32,502 nt of DNA from a virus. The position numbers and the translations under genes were made by a program. Below the pieces are notes generated by a model. That model saw only the letters and a program-made list of their open reading frames with translations. It was not told the DNA's origin and did not search any database. This document shows, piece after piece, positions 13,865 through 32,502 of the stretch; the first letter of the stretch is position 1, and every line of letters begins with the position of its first letter. The stretch lies in IMG/VR virus record IMGVR_UViG_3300031576_001279, positions 1 to 32,502 of that record; one strand, written 5' to 3'.

Positions 13865-14308
13865 ATGCATAAAGCGAAAAAAGTTTTCAGAAATAATTCG
13901 CGTGATAATAAGCGAGCGCTCGCTCTTGAATTGTACATGAATTCGGATTTGAACCAAAAGCAAATCTGTGAGATCATTGGATGGACTGAAAAGACATTTT
14001 CTGAAAACAAAATTAAGTTCGGGTGGGATGAATTAAAAGGTGCGACAACGATCACACCGCATAAGATCATTTCCAAATTGTACAAGCGGCTCGATACGAT
14101 GACAGAGGAAGGAATGCCTCTTGCCGCTGATGAGATCATCAAGATTGCAAAATCAATTGAGAAGCTCACGGATAAGCGCACAACCATTTCTCACATCATA
14201 AATGTTTTCAAAGAGTTTAACACGTTCGTCATGGGTAGGGATGGTGATCTCGGAAAAAAAGTAAATGATTTGATGAACGAATTCATCGCAGGAAAAATCA
14301 ATGGCTAA
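13865..14308 (+). CDS. Terminase small subunit-like protein (DUF1804/gp27 position)
   Basis: From ATG 13865 this is a 147-residue protein. Residues about 20-55 form a helix-turn-helix of terminase small-subunit type (MNSDLNQKQICEIIGWTEKT, then FSENKIKFGWDELK). The rest is helical and probably drives oligomerisation. The start at ATG 13865 (MHKAKK) is chosen over an in-frame GTG at 13820, whose extra residues look like leader sequence. The gene overlaps the large terminase by 8 bp, so the two should be translated together. The role is DNA recognition at the start of headful packaging. Confidence 0.7.
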   Translation: MHKAKKVFRNNSRDNKRALALELYMNSDLNQKQICEIIGWTEKTFSENKIKFGWDELKGATTITPHKIISKLYKRLDTMTEEGMPLAADEIIKIAKSIEKLTDKRTTISHIINVFKEFNTFVMGRDGDLGKKVNDLMNEFIAGKING

Positions 14309-15839
14309 TCACCTCGCATCAACTACAGTAAGACGCTCACTCAAAGAATGGCAATTATTCTGCGAGCAGGTTCAAGCGTCCAGTGCTGTTCCTTTCAATG
14401 ACACGAAAGCGAAACAGAAAGCGAGAGTTGATCGCGCATTGAAGGATTACGAATTCTTTTTTCAAACGTATCTGAAAGAGTTAGCAGATTCACCGAGCGC
14501 AAAATTTCAAATCGCTGCAGCGAATAAAATTCTGAAAGAGAAAAAGATCGTTGCTGTTTTAGAGTGGGCGCGTGAACATGCGAAGAGTATTGTTTCCAAC
14601 ATCGCAATTCCAATGTGGTTGATCGCGCACAACGAATTAACCGGAATGGTTCTCGTTGGAAAGAACGAAGATGATGCTTGCAACTTACTCAGTGATCTGC
14701 AGGCGCAGCTTCAGTTCAATGAATTGTTCGCTCATGATTTCGGAGTGCAATACAATTTCGGAAGTTGGGAAGAAGGAAGATTCACAACAAAAAACGGATC
14801 ACACTTTATCGCGCTCGGAAGAAAACAATCACCGAGAGGTATTCGCAAAATGGCGAAGCGTCCAAATCTTGCAGTGGTGGATGACGTTGATGATGATGAG
14901 TTAGTTCTCAATCCGAAATTGGTTGACAAGATTTACAAAATTCTTTTTGGTGCGTTGTATTTCGCGCTGTCGATCAAAGGGCCTGCGAGAATGATTTTCG
15001 CAGGGAACAGAATTCATCAGCGCTCAGTGCTCGCACATGTTGTTGGTGACATCGCTCCGGGAGTTCCGAAGCGCGAAGGAATATTTCATTCCAAAGTTTG
15101 TGCGATTGAAAAGGGAAAACCCGCATGGCCGGAACGATATACACTTGCAGAGTTGAATGAAAAGATTCGTGTCGCAGGCCCGACATTAGCGAACAGAGAA
15201 TTCTTTCACATCAATCATGTGGAAGGAAAAATTTTCAAAGACACTTTGTTTCATTGGAGACCACTCCCGCCATTGAAGGATTACAAAGTGATCATCGGAT
15301 ATTTCGATCCATCATTCGAAGACAAACCAACATCTGATTTCAAAGCGATCAGAGTTTGGGGATTGCACAAGGATGATCTTCATTGCATCAAATCTTTCTG
15401 CAGAAGATGCTCGCTGAACATTGCGTTTGAATGGATGATTGAAGTTGAGAAAAAACTTCCTGCAGGAGTCGGCATCATTTGGTATTGCGAGAAACAATTT
15501 TTTAACCGCCCTGTGATTGATGCGCTTTATGAAGTCGTGAAAACAACCGGACATAATCTTAGTGTGATTCAGGATAGCCGTGTCAAGGAAAATAAATTCA
15601 CGCGCATTGTAAAAATGGAATCGCAGTACACGTTGAATCATGTGTACTACAATGCCGAAGAGCAGCACAGCGCAGATATGATCGAGGCGAATAATCAGGT
15701 GAAAGGAATTGAACCCGGTTACAATGGCCCTGATGATGCACCGGATGCTGATGAAGGTGCATGGCATTACTTATCAATGCACTTACCCGGTGCGGATTTC
15801 AGACCACAAATTTTCAAACGAAAACCAAACGGTTGGTAA
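14301..15839 (+). CDS. Terminase large subunit (Mu gp28-like)
   Basis: A 512-residue packaging motor and headful nuclease. The ATPase half has a degenerate Walker A at residues about 89-96 (WAREHAKS, with His-Ala where Gly is usual, as in many Mu/P2-type terminases), a Walker B NLAVVDDVDDDE (189-200) and a coupling-type segment around FAGNRIHQ. The nuclease half begins VIIGYFDPSFEDKPTSDFKA, with Asp336 and Asp346 as likely metal ligands, and later contains an IIWYCEKQFF strand. The C-terminus is acidic (GPDDAPDADEG). It overlaps the small subunit by 8 bp and lies 1 bp from the next gene. Confidence 0.85.
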   Translation: MANHLASTTVRRSLKEWQLFCEQVQASSAVPFNDTKAKQKARVDRALKDYEFFFQTYLKELADSPSAKFQIAAANKILKEKKIVAVLEWAREHAKSIVSNIAIPMWLIAHNELTGMVLVGKNEDDACNLLSDLQAQLQFNELFAHDFGVQYNFGSWEEGRFTTKNGSHFIALGRKQSPRGIRKMAKRPNLAVVDDVDDDELVLNPKLVDKIYKILFGALYFALSIKGPARMIFAGNRIHQRSVLAHVVGDIAPGVPKREGIFHSKVCAIEKGKPAWPERYTLAELNEKIRVAGPTLANREFFHINHVEGKIFKDTLFHWRPLPPLKDYKVIIGYFDPSFEDKPTSDFKAIRVWGLHKDDLHCIKSFCRRCSLNIAFEWMIEVEKKLPAGVGIIWYCEKQFFNRPVIDALYEVVKTTGHNLSVIQDSRVKENKFTRIVKMESQYTLNHVYYNAEEQHSADMIEANNQVKGIEPGYNGPDDAPDADEGAWHYLSMHLPGADFRPQIFKRKPNGW

Positions 15840-24588: not shown

Positions 24589-26616
24589 ATGAAGCTGATC
24601 GGAAACCACCTCTACCTCACTTGGCAGGATGCGCTTGATGCAGGAATTCCTGAAGGAACATTGAAAGCTGCGAGTGTTCGTGGATCAAGATGTTGGAATA
24701 TAATTCCTGATCCAAATGACAAACGGTGCAAGCTGATTCAATACGATGCACTCCGGGATGAATACAAAGAGATGGTGGGCAATCTTCTCTGCAATGGAAA
24801 TGATCCGTACAAGTTCTTTGAAAATTCAAAGCTGCAGGAACTGCAGAAATCATCAGCAACAATATTTGATCAGATTGCTACTGATCCGGTTGAGCAACTT
24901 GAACTGAATAAATTATTTCCTGCGGACTTCGACAAAGCTGCTGCGATTGCTAAAGCATGTGGCGTTTGCAAATTCTACAATAACCTTCCTGCGAAGATCG
25001 ATGTGCTGAAAAAGTTTGGTTACAATTCGAAGAGCGCTCTGCTCACCTCATTAAGTGATTGGTGTAAAAAGAATCTCACCGATCTGTTCCCAAATAACCT
25101 TCGCAGATTTCAGGACAAGTTCGCTCAATACAAATCAGAAGGCTACCGCGCATTCATTTCAAAGAAGATCAGCAACGCGAATGCAACGAAGTTGGGCGAC
25201 ATGCAGAAACTAATCCTGCGTTCGTTCTATGCGCTTCCAAACAATTACGATATACAGCGTGTGGCGGATATGTTCAACAATGCCGTTGCAATCATCAACG
25301 CTGAGCGAAATGAAAAGTGGAAGGAGATCAGTTACTCTACTGCTTACAATTATCTGATGCTCCCGGAAGTGCAACAGCAAACATTGCTTTCGCGCAATGG
25401 CTTCGGTGCATGGAGAAATAATTACGATGCTTCGATTCAGCGCGAGCGCCCATCTGCACCAAATATTTTGTGGGTTGAAGACGGATGGAATTTCGAGTTG
25501 TATTACAACAACGAGAATGAGAGTGGCAAGAAAGATTTATGGCAGCGCACATCTGTAAGTATTATCCTCGATGCATTCAATGATACGATTGTCGGTTACG
25601 CAATCGGTGTGCGGGAAAATTCATTGGTGAAATATCTCGCTTGGAAAAATGCGATTGAAACAACCGGAGTGCTGCCTCGCGAAATCAAGATGGACAACTT
25701 CGCGAAGAAAGCGCTCGGAGATTTTTATACGAGCATCGCAAAGCATGTTCGTTTTGCTGCTGTAGGAAATGCTCGCGATAAAGTCATTGAACCATTCTTC
25801 GCCCGGTTCAACAATCAAATTCTCAAAGACTATCCGAATTGGAGTGGCAGCAACATCACTGCAAAACGCGATTCATCACATCCGAATCGTGAGCTACTGA
25901 TCCGCAATAAAAATTCTTTCCCGAATCAGCACGAAGTGATCGGACAAATAACTGAAGCGATCAATCGATGGAATACGCTAATCCGCAAGCGCGGAGTTCA
26001 TGCCGGAGAGAGTGTGCTTGACAAATGGGCGAATGCTGATCATAGCAACGACATCAAGCTGACACCACAAAAGCGTGTTGAAATTTTCGGTATCAATCAC
26101 AATTACAAAAACTCACTCACAAAGGAAGGACTCACAATCACAATTGACGGAGTGAGAAAAGTTTATCGCCTGTGGGATCATGAATTTATGAATCGCATTG
26201 GTGATCAATTCACCATTCGCTATTTACCGGGCAACACAGAAATGATCATGGCGACTGATTCAAAAAAGAACAAGTGGTTCGTTCCTGAGGAGGGCAAGGA
26301 AAAGATGGCGCTGTATGATCAGCAGGAAGGAGATCGCACCCGATTAAATGAGAAGCTGCTGTTTAAGAAAGATCACTTCGCGCTGATCCAATCAAAGAAC
26401 ACTGATGATTGGCACAGGCTGCAGCAGATGGCGCTCGCAAAATATGTGCTGCCTGACAATAGCGGAAACGCGAAGTATGCTTTGAATGCAGCAGAGCAAT
26501 TATCAAAAACATTGACGCACGCAACAACAGAGGATGAATTTGACGCTGATCTATTAGTGCCTGTAATTGCTGCATCAAAAAACAACGATGAGATCATTGA
26601 TGAATTCGATTACTAA
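24589..26616 (+). CDS. MuA-type DDE transposase
   Basis: A 675-residue protein. Residues 1-60 are a Mu-type end-binding start (YLTWQDALDAGIPEGTLKAA, then RGSRCWNIIPDP). The catalytic triad can be placed at Asp298 in NILWVEDGWNFELYY, Asp369 in REIKMDNFAKKAL and Glu401 in RDKVIEPFFARFNNQI, the last with the family K-x-IE-x-FF pattern. A beta-barrel-like domain follows (RKVYRLWDHEFMNRIGDQF), and the acidic C-terminus matches the MuB/ClpX-interaction tail of MuA. It catalyses replicative transposition of the prophage. It is followed by the MuB gene, as in Mu, after a 72-bp gap with a hairpin. Confidence 0.9.
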   Translation: MKLIGNHLYLTWQDALDAGIPEGTLKAASVRGSRCWNIIPDPNDKRCKLIQYDALRDEYKEMVGNLLCNGNDPYKFFENSKLQELQKSSATIFDQIATDPVEQLELNKLFPADFDKAAAIAKACGVCKFYNNLPAKIDVLKKFGYNSKSALLTSLSDWCKKNLTDLFPNNLRRFQDKFAQYKSEGYRAFISKKISNANATKLGDMQKLILRSFYALPNNYDIQRVADMFNNAVAIINAERNEKWKEISYSTAYNYLMLPEVQQQTLLSRNGFGAWRNNYDASIQRERPSAPNILWVEDGWNFELYYNNENESGKKDLWQRTSVSIILDAFNDTIVGYAIGVRENSLVKYLAWKNAIETTGVLPREIKMDNFAKKALGDFYTSIAKHVRFAAVGNARDKVIEPFFARFNNQILKDYPNWSGSNITAKRDSSHPNRELLIRNKNSFPNQHEVIGQITEAINRWNTLIRKRGVHAGESVLDKWANADHSNDIKLTPQKRVEIFGINHNYKNSLTKEGLTITIDGVRKVYRLWDHEFMNRIGDQFTIRYLPGNTEMIMATDSKKNKWFVPEEGKEKMALYDQQEGDRTRLNEKLLFKKDHFALIQSKNTDDWHRLQQMALAKYVLPDNSGNAKYALNAAEQLSKTLTHATTEDEFDADLLVPVIAASKNNDEIIDEFDY

Positions 26617-26630
26617 ATCATAAAAAGAAA

Positions 26631-26654
26631 GCGACATCGCTTGAACGATGCCGC
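26631..26654 (+). promoter_or_regulatory. Intercistronic hairpin between transposase and MuB-like genes
   Basis: GCGACATCG (26631-26639) pairs with CGATGCCGC (26646-26654) over 9 positions with one A-C mismatch around a CTTGAA loop. No T-run follows, so it does not look like an intrinsic terminator. It sits just upstream of the MuB-like start (26689) and could set the ratio of the two products by attenuation or mRNA processing. Confidence 0.35.
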
Positions 26655-26688
26655 CTCCATTAAATCACTTAAATACAAACGCAAAACT

Positions 26689-27561
26689 ATGTTAAGCAAA
26701 GAAGACAAACAAAAAATTGCAGATGCGCTCCGAATGAAAATGGACACAGAGAAACTGAGTCAGAAAGTTGTGGAGCGTGCATCAGGAGTTTCACTCACCA
26801 ATGTCAATCACATCTTCAACGGCAAGTGGTATGACAAAGTGATTGGAGACATTCAGTGGATTCGTATTGCTGAATGGTTAGGCATTGCACTGGAAGGTGA
26901 ATCGTGGGTTTTGGTGAACACGAAAAACTTTAAGCGGATCACCAACATGTGTGTTGATGCGCAACGCAACGGCATCATGTATATGATCAGCGGGAAGCAA
27001 GGAAGCGGGAAGTCCGCAAGCTTGCGCAACCACACCCGGAACAATTCTGCAAACACATTTTACATCGAGTGCCATGCGCATTGGGGCAAAAAAGATTTCC
27101 TGAACGAATTGAAAAAACGTTTGGGATTGGATGTGACACCGGAAAGCATCAACGATATGGTGACAGCCATCGTGAACTTCCTGAAGAAAACAATCAAGCC
27201 GCTCGTGATCATTGATGAAGCGGACGAATTGAAGGAAGGTGTTTTCGGATTCATCAAGTCACTCTACAATTTACTTGATGAGCATTGCGGCTTCATCATT
27301 TGCGGAGGATTGCATTTGCGCAAACGCATGGACAAAGGTGTGAAGTTGGCGAAGCAATCTTACTGCGAAATCTTTTCCCGCTGTGGCGGTGAGATGCGCG
27401 GAATGCATGAGATCACTGAAGGTGAAATTGAAGCCATCTGCAAAGCGAACGGTTTAATCGAAGGGCCGGATGTACAGGAAGTGATCAATAGTGCAAACAA
27501 CGATTTGCGCAGAGTAGAAAGAAGAATTCATTCCATCAAGCTTTTAAAACAAGTTGCATAA
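26689..27561 (+). CDS. MuB-like AAA+ transposition ATPase
   Basis: A 290-residue protein. An N-terminal XRE-like helix-turn-helix (QKVVERASGVSLTNVNHIFN, residues 25-44), as in Mu B, precedes an AAA+ core with Walker A SGKQGSGKSA (101-110) and Walker B LVIIDEADEL (172-181), then IICGGLHLRKRM as sensor region. The C-terminus has INSANNDLRRVERRI, the sensor-II-type helix. MuB binds target DNA, activates the transposase and gives target immunity. The start at ATG 26689 is used rather than the TTG at 26641, which lies in the hairpin. The next gene begins 2 bp after the stop. Confidence 0.85.
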   Translation: MLSKEDKQKIADALRMKMDTEKLSQKVVERASGVSLTNVNHIFNGKWYDKVIGDIQWIRIAEWLGIALEGESWVLVNTKNFKRITNMCVDAQRNGIMYMISGKQGSGKSASLRNHTRNNSANTFYIECHAHWGKKDFLNELKKRLGLDVTPESINDMVTAIVNFLKKTIKPLVIIDEADELKEGVFGFIKSLYNLLDEHCGFIICGGLHLRKRMDKGVKLAKQSYCEIFSRCGGEMRGMHEITEGEIEAICKANGLIEGPDVQEVINSANNDLRRVERRIHSIKLLKQVA

Positions 27562-28915: not shown

Positions 28916-29440
28916 ATGGCAACAAAACGAGAAAAAAAAGTGGTGATCAAGAATGTGTCACCACAACAGGCGGATGAAGCAATGGGCAAATATGCCGTTG
29001 CGGATGCGCAGATTGAAAAGACTACTGCAACAATGGATTTAGAAATTGCTGCAATCAGAGAGAAACACTCTGAGAAATTAGACAAGCTGACGAGTGAGCG
29101 CGATGATCAATTCGACATCATTCACAAGTATTATGAAGAGCATCCCGAAGCATTTGGTGAAAAGAAATCTCTTGAAGTCACTCATGGCAGAGTGGGATTC
29201 AGAACCGGAACACCGAAGCTGAAACTGATCAAAGGTTTCACTTGGGCAAGTGTAACGAACCTTCTTAAATCATTTCTTCCTGACTACGTGCGCACGGTTG
29301 ATGAACCATCAAAGGAGAAACTCCTTGCTGATCGCAACGATGCTGCAGTGAACAAGAAGTTTGAGAAATGCGGAATCACCGTTGATCAGGATGAAACATT
29401 TTTCATTGAACTGAAAAAAGAAGAAGCTGCGGTAGCATGA
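28916..29440 (+). CDS. gam: Host-nuclease inhibitor Gam
   Basis: A 174-residue protein, the same length as Mu Gam. A helical start with ATMDLEIAAIREKHSEKLDK and a coiled coil precede YYEEHPEAFGEKKSLEVTHG (about residues 78-97) and VGFRTGTPKLKLIKGFTWA, the signature of the Mu Gam family. The C-terminus carries FEKCGITVDQDETFFIELKK. Gam binds ends of double-stranded DNA like eukaryotic Ku and blocks exonucleases, protecting transposition intermediates. As in Mu it lies after B and a few small genes. It overlaps the next gene by 4 bp. Confidence 0.9.
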   Translation: MATKREKKVVIKNVSPQQADEAMGKYAVADAQIEKTTATMDLEIAAIREKHSEKLDKLTSERDDQFDIIHKYYEEHPEAFGEKKSLEVTHGRVGFRTGTPKLKLIKGFTWASVTNLLKSFLPDYVRTVDEPSKEKLLADRNDAAVNKKFEKCGITVDQDETFFIELKKEEAAVA

Positions 29441-29640
29441 AATATCTAAGAGTAAAGCCGGGCAACATCATTAAGAAACTGGAGCGCGCAATAAAACGTC
29501 ACGATGTTGATTTGATTCTGCGAGCGACAGAAGAAAGTTACTCATCTGATATTGATTGGGCGCGTCATGTTACTGATGCGGCTGCTCGCAAGTACACGGA
29601 GTTGATGCATCAAGCGAATCTAATTCTCGCGTACTCATGA
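29437..29640 (+). CDS. Small early protein, paralogue of the gene at 27971
   Basis: A 67-residue basic protein. It shares with the 27971-28168 product the L..AI...D...I pattern and a W...V....A..Y..L...AN..L.YS ending (here DIDWARHVTDAAARKYTELM, QANLILAYS). The N-terminus MKYLRVKPGNIIKKLERAI is more basic than that of its paralogue. It is coupled to Gam by an ATGA overlap and is the last gene before the tRNA. Function unknown. Confidence 0.55.
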   Translation: MKYLRVKPGNIIKKLERAIKRHDVDLILRATEESYSSDIDWARHVTDAAARKYTELMHQANLILAYS

Positions 29641-29708
29641 TCGTTCTTTTCATGGTTACTTATTTATTAAGGAACACGGGCGCACCCGGTGTCAATCAGG
29701 GTGCAGAA

Positions 29709-29781
29709 TGCGGGATGGAGCAGTTGGTAGCTCGTCACACTCATAATGTGAAGGTCACAGGTTCGAGTCCTGTTCCCGCTA
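29709..29781 (+). tRNA. tRNA with CAU anticodon, initiator-like (tRNA-Met family)
   Basis: A full cloverleaf can be drawn. The acceptor arm is 29709-29715 with 29774-29780, leaving position 1-72 as a U-U mismatch. The D stem is GAGC/GCTC, the anticodon stem TCACA/TGTGA, the loop CTCATAA with CAT at 29742-29744, the T stem ACAGG/CCTGT, and A73 the discriminator at 29781. The encoded 3' end is CGA, not CCA, so CCA must be added. The 1-72 mismatch and A11-U24 pair are initiator traits. The anticodon stem lacks the three consecutive G-C pairs of true initiators. Charging with Met is likely; lysidine-modified Ile is a remote alternative. Confidence 0.85.
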
Positions 29782-29785
29782 CGAA

Positions 29786-30013
29786 ATGAATATTCTGAAA
29801 ACATTGAAGCGCATGAAGCGCGATGTACCGGAGTTGGATGTCAATTATTATTTGTCTCGATACAATGCGTATCCGTCAATGAAATGGTTTCTGCCAACGA
29901 ATGATGGTGATCAGGATTTTCAAATCTGCAATGAGTTATTCGAGCGCGGAGCGATGGAAAGAAAACCTGTATTGAAAGGACAATCTCTCATTGTGTACTT
30001 CAAAAAAATTTAG
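29786..30013 (+). CDS. Small early protein after the tRNA
   Basis: A 75-residue protein that starts 5 bp after the tRNA. It reads MNILKTLKRMKRDVPELDVN, then an aromatic middle (YYLSRYNAYPSMKWFLP) and a basic end (SLIVYFKKI). The layout, a charged helix followed by a small aromatic domain with strands, gives no family match that I recognise. It is co-oriented with the early genes, and its stop is 21 bp before the next small gene. Confidence 0.5.
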   Translation: MNILKTLKRMKRDVPELDVNYYLSRYNAYPSMKWFLPTNDGDQDFQICNELFERGAMERKPVLKGQSLIVYFKKI

Positions 30014-30860: not shown

Positions 30861-31234
30861 GTAAAGCAACCACCACCACTTTACCCAAAGTGAGTCTGTC
30901 AATTCGTTGGCGTGAATTGTTTGGTAACACCATACATGAAACGAGCAAAGAGATTCGTAGAGCTCGATGGGATGAGTGGAAATCCATCGGAAACAAATCC
31001 GGTGGACGCGCGAGACAAATGGTCAACTATTGGTCACGCGACAATGTAGAAGAAACCTGTTCCGGCTGTAAACATCGTGATGGTGATTGGTGTAAGCTGC
31101 AGGGATTACCTTGTAATGTGAATCCGATTTTGACTTTCGATAATAACCTTATCGGAATGGCATGTATGGGTGTAGGTTATGAGGGAGAATCAAAACGTAA
31201 CTCGACAGTAACTAACAAGGAGGTAACACAATGA
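30857..31234 (+). CDS. Cys-rich early protein
   Basis: A 125-residue protein. After a Thr-rich start, a basic segment RELFGNTIHETSKEIRRARW leads to a Cys cluster: C68, C71, C79, C86 and C103 (CSGCKHRDGDWCKLQGLPCN, then GMACMG). The spacing could hold zinc or another metal, although the pattern matches no ribbon I can name. G-rich bases upstream of ATG 30857 (GGGAGGGAGAGG) may serve as ribosome-binding site. It overlaps both neighbours by 4 bp. A nucleic-acid-binding role is possible but unproven. Confidence 0.5.
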   Translation: MSKATTTTLPKVSLSIRWRELFGNTIHETSKEIRRARWDEWKSIGNKSGGRARQMVNYWSRDNVEETCSGCKHRDGDWCKLQGLPCNVNPILTFDNNLIGMACMGVGYEGESKRNSTVTNKEVTQ

Positions 31235-31647
31235 AAGCACTATCAATGCATCAACCTTGGGCGCAAATGATTCTCGATGGTGTAAAGACTATTGAAACAC
31301 GCAAGTGGTCAACTAACTATCGTGGTGAAATTCTCATCTGCGCATCGAAGCAATTTGACTTTGCGATTCCACTATCAACGCAACGAATTCTTCATGATGA
31401 GAAGAATCACTACAACATCAGCTTTCTTTTTCCGATTGGTGTGACATTGTGTATTGCAGATTTGGTTGATTGCAGAAAGATGACTCACGAAGACGAAACG
31501 GAAGCGTGCATTGAAGTTTATCCAAAAGCACATTCACTGATCCTTCAGAATGTGCGCAGGGTGAGACAACTCGAACTACCTAAAGAAATCAAATGGCGAT
31601 TGGGATTATTCCCTGTGCCTGATGAATTTGTCAAGCAATTACTTTAA
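31231..31647 (+). CDS. ASCH-domain protein
   Basis: A 138-residue protein. The N-terminus has the ASCH/PUA-like signature SMHQPWAQMILDGVKTIETR, then KWSTNYRGEILICASKQFD. The strand FPIGVTLCIADLVDCRKMT follows, and the fold closes with LGLFPVP. ASCH domains bind RNA or modified nucleotides and are found in phages and in nucleic-acid-modification systems. A strong AAGGAGG lies 9 bp before the ATG, and the start overlaps the upstream stop (ATGA). Here it could bind host RNA or modified bases; no enzymatic residue set is clear enough to claim catalysis. Confidence 0.8.
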   Translation: MKALSMHQPWAQMILDGVKTIETRKWSTNYRGEILICASKQFDFAIPLSTQRILHDEKNHYNISFLFPIGVTLCIADLVDCRKMTHEDETEACIEVYPKAHSLILQNVRRVRQLELPKEIKWRLGLFPVPDEFVKQLL

Positions 31648-31965: not shown

Positions 31966-32502
31966 ATGAAACTGATTAAAGCAATAGAAATCGCAGAACG
32001 TATCGTGGCGCAATTGCAGCCATTCTGCGAGCGCATTGATATTGCCGGAAGTATCAGACGGAAGAAAGAAGATGTTGGTGACATCGAGATCGTGTGCATC
32101 AGGAAGGGCAGTGAATTGTTTTCGTTTGTTGGGGCGATAAACAAATATGTCATCATCAAAGGCGGTGCTGATGGAAAATACACTCAGCGAATTGTTGAGT
32201 CAGAACATGGACAGATCAACCTTGATCTGTTCATGCCATCAGCACCGGACTACTTCCGTCAGCTTGCGATACGCACCGGATCATCTGACTACAGCGCGAG
32301 AGTGATTGCTTCAGGATGGAAAGCAAAAGGATGGTGCGGTACTGATGGTGGATTGCGAATGATTAAAGAGTGTCGCAGCATCGGTAAGAATAAATGGGTT
32401 TGCATTACGAGCCGCCCGACATTGCCTCCGGTGTGGCATAGTGAAGAGGAATTTTTTGAGTGGTTAGGAATAGAGTGGATTGAACCTGAAAAAAGAATTT
32501 GA
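31966..32502 (+). CDS. DNA polymerase beta-like nucleotidyltransferase
   Basis: A 178-residue protein. The family-X motif is clear: IAGSIRRKKEDVGDIEIVCI (residues 26-45), with Gly28-Ser29, Asp39 and Glu41 in place of the usual second Asp. A third acidic residue, Asp87, is in QINLDLFMP. The RRKK basic stretch and the compact size match phage-encoded polymerase-beta palm proteins. The final residues WHSEEEFFEWLGIEWIEPEK resemble the C-terminal GLEWIEP-type end of PolX. It probably fills gaps or adds nucleotides, perhaps repairing transposition intermediates. The stop lies at the last base of the window. Confidence 0.75.
   Translation: MKLIKAIEIAERIVAQLQPFCERIDIAGSIRRKKEDVGDIEIVCIRKGSELFSFVGAINKYVIIKGGADGKYTQRIVESEHGQINLDLFMPSAPDYFRQLAIRTGSSDYSARVIASGWKAKGWCGTDGGLRMIKECRSIGKNKWVCITSRPTLPPVWHSEEEFFEWLGIEWIEPEKRI

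Follow-up and report, generated by a model that had tools for sequence, protein, structure and literature searches.

The gene at 29709-29781 of the virus contig analysed here (the window, 32,502 nucleotides in full) is an intact tRNA(CAU) with the body of an initiator, in which the three consecutive G-C pairs of the anticodon stem (29-41, 30-40 and 31-39; 3GC) are absent. To our knowledge, initiators of all domains of life are described as conserving the 3GC element. The window tRNA lacks this defining initiator feature, so it is not a canonical initiator; judged from its bases, it most likely works like one, and atypical initiation is our best reading of it. Neither tRNA-Met genes in phages nor initiator tRNAs are new in themselves, and no description of phage initiators without 3GC was found in the open-access literature searched, the coverage of which was incomplete. 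With little but 3GC replaced, in a form close to a laboratory P-site mutant, this natural tRNA offers a ready-made test of the role of 3GC, and because cultured phages show a related pattern, the question can be addressed in laboratory hosts. If our reading is true, phage initiator tRNAs would gain a function other than codon compensation.

The tRNA gene and its fold

ARAGORN called 29709-29782 as tRNA-Met(CAT), and Rfam matched 29709-29781 to RF00005 with 66 bits; for both programs this was the single tRNA of the window, on the + strand. The gene is 73 nt long without an encoded CCA, and its linear positions are those of standard tRNA numbering. Read from the bases, the acceptor strands are TGCGGGA (1-7) and TCCCGCT (66-72) with discriminator A73, the D stem is GAGC (10-13) with GCTC (22-25), the anticodon arm is TCACA (27-31), CTCATAA (32-38) and TGTGA (39-43), and the T stem is ACAGG (49-53) with CCTGT (61-65). 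The 5' strand of the anticodon stem, UCACA, lies at 29735-29739 (+), with ACA at 29737-29739 where host initiators have GGG at 29-31. The CUCAUAA loop at 29740-29746 (+) is the same as in the host initiator and holds the anticodon CAU at 29742-29744, as in bacterial initiator tRNA (tRNAfMet). The 3' strand, UGUGA, lies at 29747-29751 (+), with UGU at 29747-29749 for the host CCC of 39-41.

The minimum-energy fold was a cloverleaf with an open 1-72 pair, and every stem of the tRNA is paired. A 1-72 mismatch together with A11-U24 marks a tRNA for formylation and opposes elongation. The first-pass annotation had named these two as initiator marks and had described the stem as TCACA/TGTGA without the three G-C pairs, and the bases bear it out: the non-Watson-Crick U1·U72, G2-C71, C3-G70 and A11-U24 are all present, and the anticodon stem consists of five Watson-Crick pairs, of which 29-41 is A-U, 30-40 is C-G and 31-39 is A-U, leaving 0/3 of 3GC.

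The phage and the gene neighbourhood

The contig encodes a MuA-like transposase (24589-26616, +; phrog_310, 8.7e-44), a MuB-like transposition protein (26641-27561, +; phrog_296, 2.1e-45) and, 5' of the tRNA in the run of early genes, a Mu Gam-like DNA-end protection protein (28916-29440, +; phrog_491, 1.4e-30). It also encodes a repressor, a major head protein, a protease, a sheath protein, a baseplate hub and a portal protein fused to a head-morphogenesis domain. With these transposition, repressor and virion genes, the contig is therefore a Mu-like transposable phage. Searching viral contigs with its MuA gave no match. The large terminase (14301-15839, +) was used for placement among Bacteroidota prophages. 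Its relatives, at 53-62% identity, lie in prophages of Chryseobacterium, Flavobacterium, Aquimarina, Apibacter, Mucilaginibacter and a Sphingobacteriales bacterium, so the host is a member of Bacteroidota.

The tRNA sits 3' of the Gam gene within the early run, 68 bases beyond a 67-aa ORF (29437-29640, +) that had no Pfam match. After a gap of 4 bases it is followed by a called 75-aa ORF (29786-30013, +), and no terminator-like site was found between the two. Near the tRNA there was neither a promoter-like sequence nor a Bacteroidota promoter motif, the sole match in the window being at chance level. A GC-rich hairpin at 29682-29704 ends 4 bases 5' of the tRNA, in a region that folds no better than its shuffles. 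The same early run contains an ASCH-domain protein (PF04266) at 31231-31647, and the ASCH fold has been linked to RNA metabolism. At 31966-32502, up to the contig end, lies a protein whose palm and thumb are DNA polymerase beta-like.

Comparison with host initiators

The closest initiators found were those of four Sphingobacteriales genomes (G458, G439, G480 and G143), which share 66/73 bases with the window tRNA, in agreement with the earlier view that its body resembles a Bacteroidota initiator. U1·U72, G2-C71, C3-G70 and A11-U24, all marks for formylation, are common to both, as are the CUCAUAA loop and A73. The Sphingobacteriales initiators thus have U1·U72 themselves, and the mismatch of the window tRNA is evidently inherited from the host and not a phage trait. 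The differences, by contrast, fall at positions 29, 30, 31, 39, 40, 41 and 50 only (7/73). Six of the seven are all six 3GC bases, every one re-paired, giving A29-U41, C30-G40 and A31-U39; the seventh, in the T stem, turns U50·G64 into the better-paired C50-G64. Under random placement of seven differences, six would hit the 3GC bases, six in number, with a probability of 4e-8, which indicates that the departure of the stem from the host is not chance noise.

Comparison with the host initiator had been proposed beforehand; the host has GGG/CCC, and the window stem is different. In 25 prophage-bearing genomes, GGG/CCC was found in 39/39 chromosomal initiators, and the two other matches were prophage genes. 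A pattern-matching initiator was present in 341/395 genomes of Bacteroidota, with GGG/CCC in all of about 150 among the matches listed. A pattern that excluded G from position 29 hit only 2/247 genomes. One of these tRNAs (L175) lies in a prophage, with phage head genes alongside as read from the ORFs. The other (L176:1056-1129), beside an ftsY-like gene, has the stem CCAGG/CCUGG, which departs from 3GC at 29-41, and it seems to be a genuine variant on the chromosome, a rare host departure from 3GC. Taken over these genomes, Bacteroidota host initiators keep 3GC almost without exception.

No host initiator with the same body and differing only in the stem was found in 300 genomes. The exact window anticodon arm with its D-stem flank had no match in IMG/VR and GTDB contigs; therefore, no copy with the window stem was found outside the window. 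A chimera with a host elongator arm was tried and rejected: no such arm was found in 41 Sphingobacteriales genomes, and G458 has different stems in its CAU tRNAs.

Initiator-type tRNAs in viruses and in Mu-like relatives

Initiator-type tRNAs were pulled by pattern from viral contigs, giving 167 distinct, well-folded sequences, about 60% of which had no other tRNA in the stretch examined. Full 3GC was missing in 105/167. These 105 variants keep the remainder of the arm largely intact, with all five stem pairs in 100/105 and the CUCAUAA loop in 103/105, and 1-72 is without a Watson-Crick pair in 79/105. Departures at a single pair were the commonest (79/105) and lay mostly at 29-41. Over the whole set, G-C was found at 29-41 in 72/167, at 31-39 in 137/167 and at 30-40 in 161/167. 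The 30-40 pair was G-C in 161, C-G in 5 and G-U in 1, that is, a strong pair in 166/167, into which the C30-G40 of the window fits. A change of all three 3GC pairs occurred in 0/167. An unconstrained viral scan gave non-3GC stems in 76/100 (76%) among the matches listed, a value that was not used as a host-versus-phage contrast because A29-U41 may be native in some bacterial groups (the host initiators compared here are all from Bacteroidota) and viral contigs can hold host DNA. On the present sequences, changes of 3GC milder than that of the window are found in many unrelated phages and almost never in the Bacteroidota chromosomes checked.

Several named phages have, like the window, a CAU initiator-type tRNA without full 3GC. 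The stem is AU/GC/GC in the cultured phages Myrna, Phendrix and pEa_SNUABM_47 and in the crAss-like phage cr60_1 (from a metagenome), and UA/GC/GC in CcrRogue, CcrBL9 and CcrColossus. S-CRM01 combines A29-U41 with an altered 31-39, and DSS3P8 has A29-U41, U30·G40 and C31-G39. In contrast to the window, mostly one or two pairs are changed in these phages, DSS3P8 being the only listed one with three altered. The Kolesnikvirus phages phiEa21-4 and SE5 have an initiator-like tRNA-Met in which the loop reads UUCAUUA and the anticodon stem has U31·U39 mismatched.

Among the terminase relatives, only a minority has a tRNA. Each of the tRNA-bearing Mu-like relatives (L114, L115, L131, L132/L134, L141 and L339) has a solitary CAU initiator-type tRNA; the search in related phages that the first-pass annotation had proposed thus recovered initiator-type tRNAs, none of them with the window stem. 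Full 3GC is kept in L114 and L131, whereas the stem is GC/GC/AU in L115 (with A32) and L132, UA/GC/GC in L141, and AU/GC/GC with the loop UUCAUUC in L339. In L115, L131, L132 and L141 the tRNA lies in the late region, with the major head protein side on one flank and the sheath gene on the other, and in L114 it is just 5' of the sheath gene; the window tRNA, in the early run, occupies a different site. The tRNA of L339 (3460-3534), a terminase-related phage from human faeces, is changed at loop positions 37 and 38.

Possible function of the tRNA

The 3GC mutant of the E. coli initiator, U29:A41/C30:G40/A31:U39, is charged, is formylated and binds IF2; at normal initiator levels it does not initiate and harms ribosome maturation (PMC10486304). 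It initiates when metZWV is deleted or when Fmt or formylation is low (PMC7949028). The window tRNA resembles this mutant in having an initiator body with the three G-C pairs replaced and with identical 30-40 and 31-39 pairs, whereas it is natural and phage-borne, has A29-U41 instead of U29-A41 and has a Bacteroidota body. Pairs 29-41 and 30-40 contact 16S G1338/A1339 (PMC4611024). These contacts and the constraint on 30-40 in the viral set suggest that viral initiator-type tRNAs are still used in the P site.

In this study, we propose that the phage tRNA descends from an initiator of a Bacteroidota (Sphingobacteriales-like) host, and that selection would have rewritten 3GC into three other Watson-Crick pairs, leaving the features for charging, formylation and IF2 untouched. 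Three further steps would follow, here in falling order of support: the tRNA would share the transcription of the early genes and would receive Met and a formyl group; in infected cells it would initiate on phage mRNAs although it lacks full 3GC; and it would do so mostly when few intact host initiators are left, after depletion of their pool or cleavage by a host nuclease recognising the canonical stem-loop. The E. coli mutant is known to initiate under such depletion. That this mutant is inactive and harmful to ribosome maturation at normal initiator levels speaks against the proposal by analogy, as does the full 3GC of the relatives L114 and L131, and we hold the whole account only tentatively, with somewhat less than even confidence. 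A wider version, in which phages broadly encode a class of initiators that keep formylation identity, escape the 3GC rule and start translation when host initiators are destroyed or sequestered, with the window as an extreme form, is doubtful.

The change of 3GC may instead reflect relaxed constraint, in which an extra initiator boosts initiation and, having no need of 3GC, would lose it by drift one pair at a time, without the action of a nuclease. The prevalence of single-pair departures in viral contigs, mostly at 29-41, and the full-3GC copies that phages also have would fit such drift. Yet extra initiator copies in host genomes have GGG/CCC in every copy among the matches listed, and drift alone does not easily account for three pairs changed and re-paired while just one more of the 73 bases differs, so that this account is rather unlikely. 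Decay to an inert gene would agree with the window tRNA not being seen in close terminase relatives and with the lack of a nearby promoter motif; every stem is paired, U50·G64 has become C50-G64 and the Rfam score is high, and we give decay very little credence. The window stem resembles that of E. coli elongator tRNAMet, the source of the laboratory mutant stem (PMC7949028), as would be expected of an elongator at Met codons. An elongator should have a paired 1-72 and Y11-R24, whereas here 1-72 is mismatched and 11-24 is A-U. The two other CAU tRNAs of G458 have the stems GAAGA/UCUUU and UAGGA/CCCUA and bodies with C11-G24, and the window arm is therefore no copy of a host elongator arm. Repurposing for elongation, which had been suggested at first, is thus hard to maintain with both marks unchanged here and the mismatch kept in most phage variants, and we consider it highly improbable. 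The intact features for charging, formylation and IF2 argue against both elongator and decay, and favour a working, formylatable initiator without a 3GC requirement.

Two other accounts place the tRNA outside productive initiation. In host shut-off, the tRNA would be charged and formylated and would bind IF2 but fail P-site inspection, and would thereby occupy initiation factors or immature 30S subunits and slow host translation. Overexpression of the E. coli mutant, with which the window stem has 2/3 pairs in common, caused a 30S maturation defect and sensitised the cells (PMC10486304, PMC7949028). Phage translation would be slowed too, and the known effect requires high copy number or cold, making this improbable. 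A role as decoy or sponge, binding RNA-modifying toxins or nucleases directed at initiators, would suit an intact body with a changed ribosome-facing element; since the recognised anticodon stem-loop should then stay, and the stem is the very part that changed, there is only a slight chance of it.

Within our proposal of atypical initiation, the nuclease would be of the VapC type, reading the canonical initiator stem-loop, which the rewritten stem would escape. VapC toxins (PIN) cleave tRNAfMet between A38 and C39 (PMC4105405). Evasion of anticodon nucleases has been proposed for phage tRNAs mutated in the anticodon loop, and phages facing VapC are reported to have generally avoided encoding tRNA-fMet (PMC10264068). 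The anticodon arm is altered in those tRNAs and in the window; there the mutation is in the loop at or near the cleavage site, whereas in the window tRNA the loop is the same as in the host, the stem is rewritten and position 39, by the VapC cut, is changed from C to U. Against an escape, most phage variants change 29-41 and not the 38/39 cleavage site, and no account of how sensitive altered stems are to VapC was found in the literature consulted. PIN domains are common, and we infer those of the closest hosts to be candidate initiator nucleases only; PIN-domain proteins of VapC size are encoded in 4/4 of the genomes with the closest initiators.
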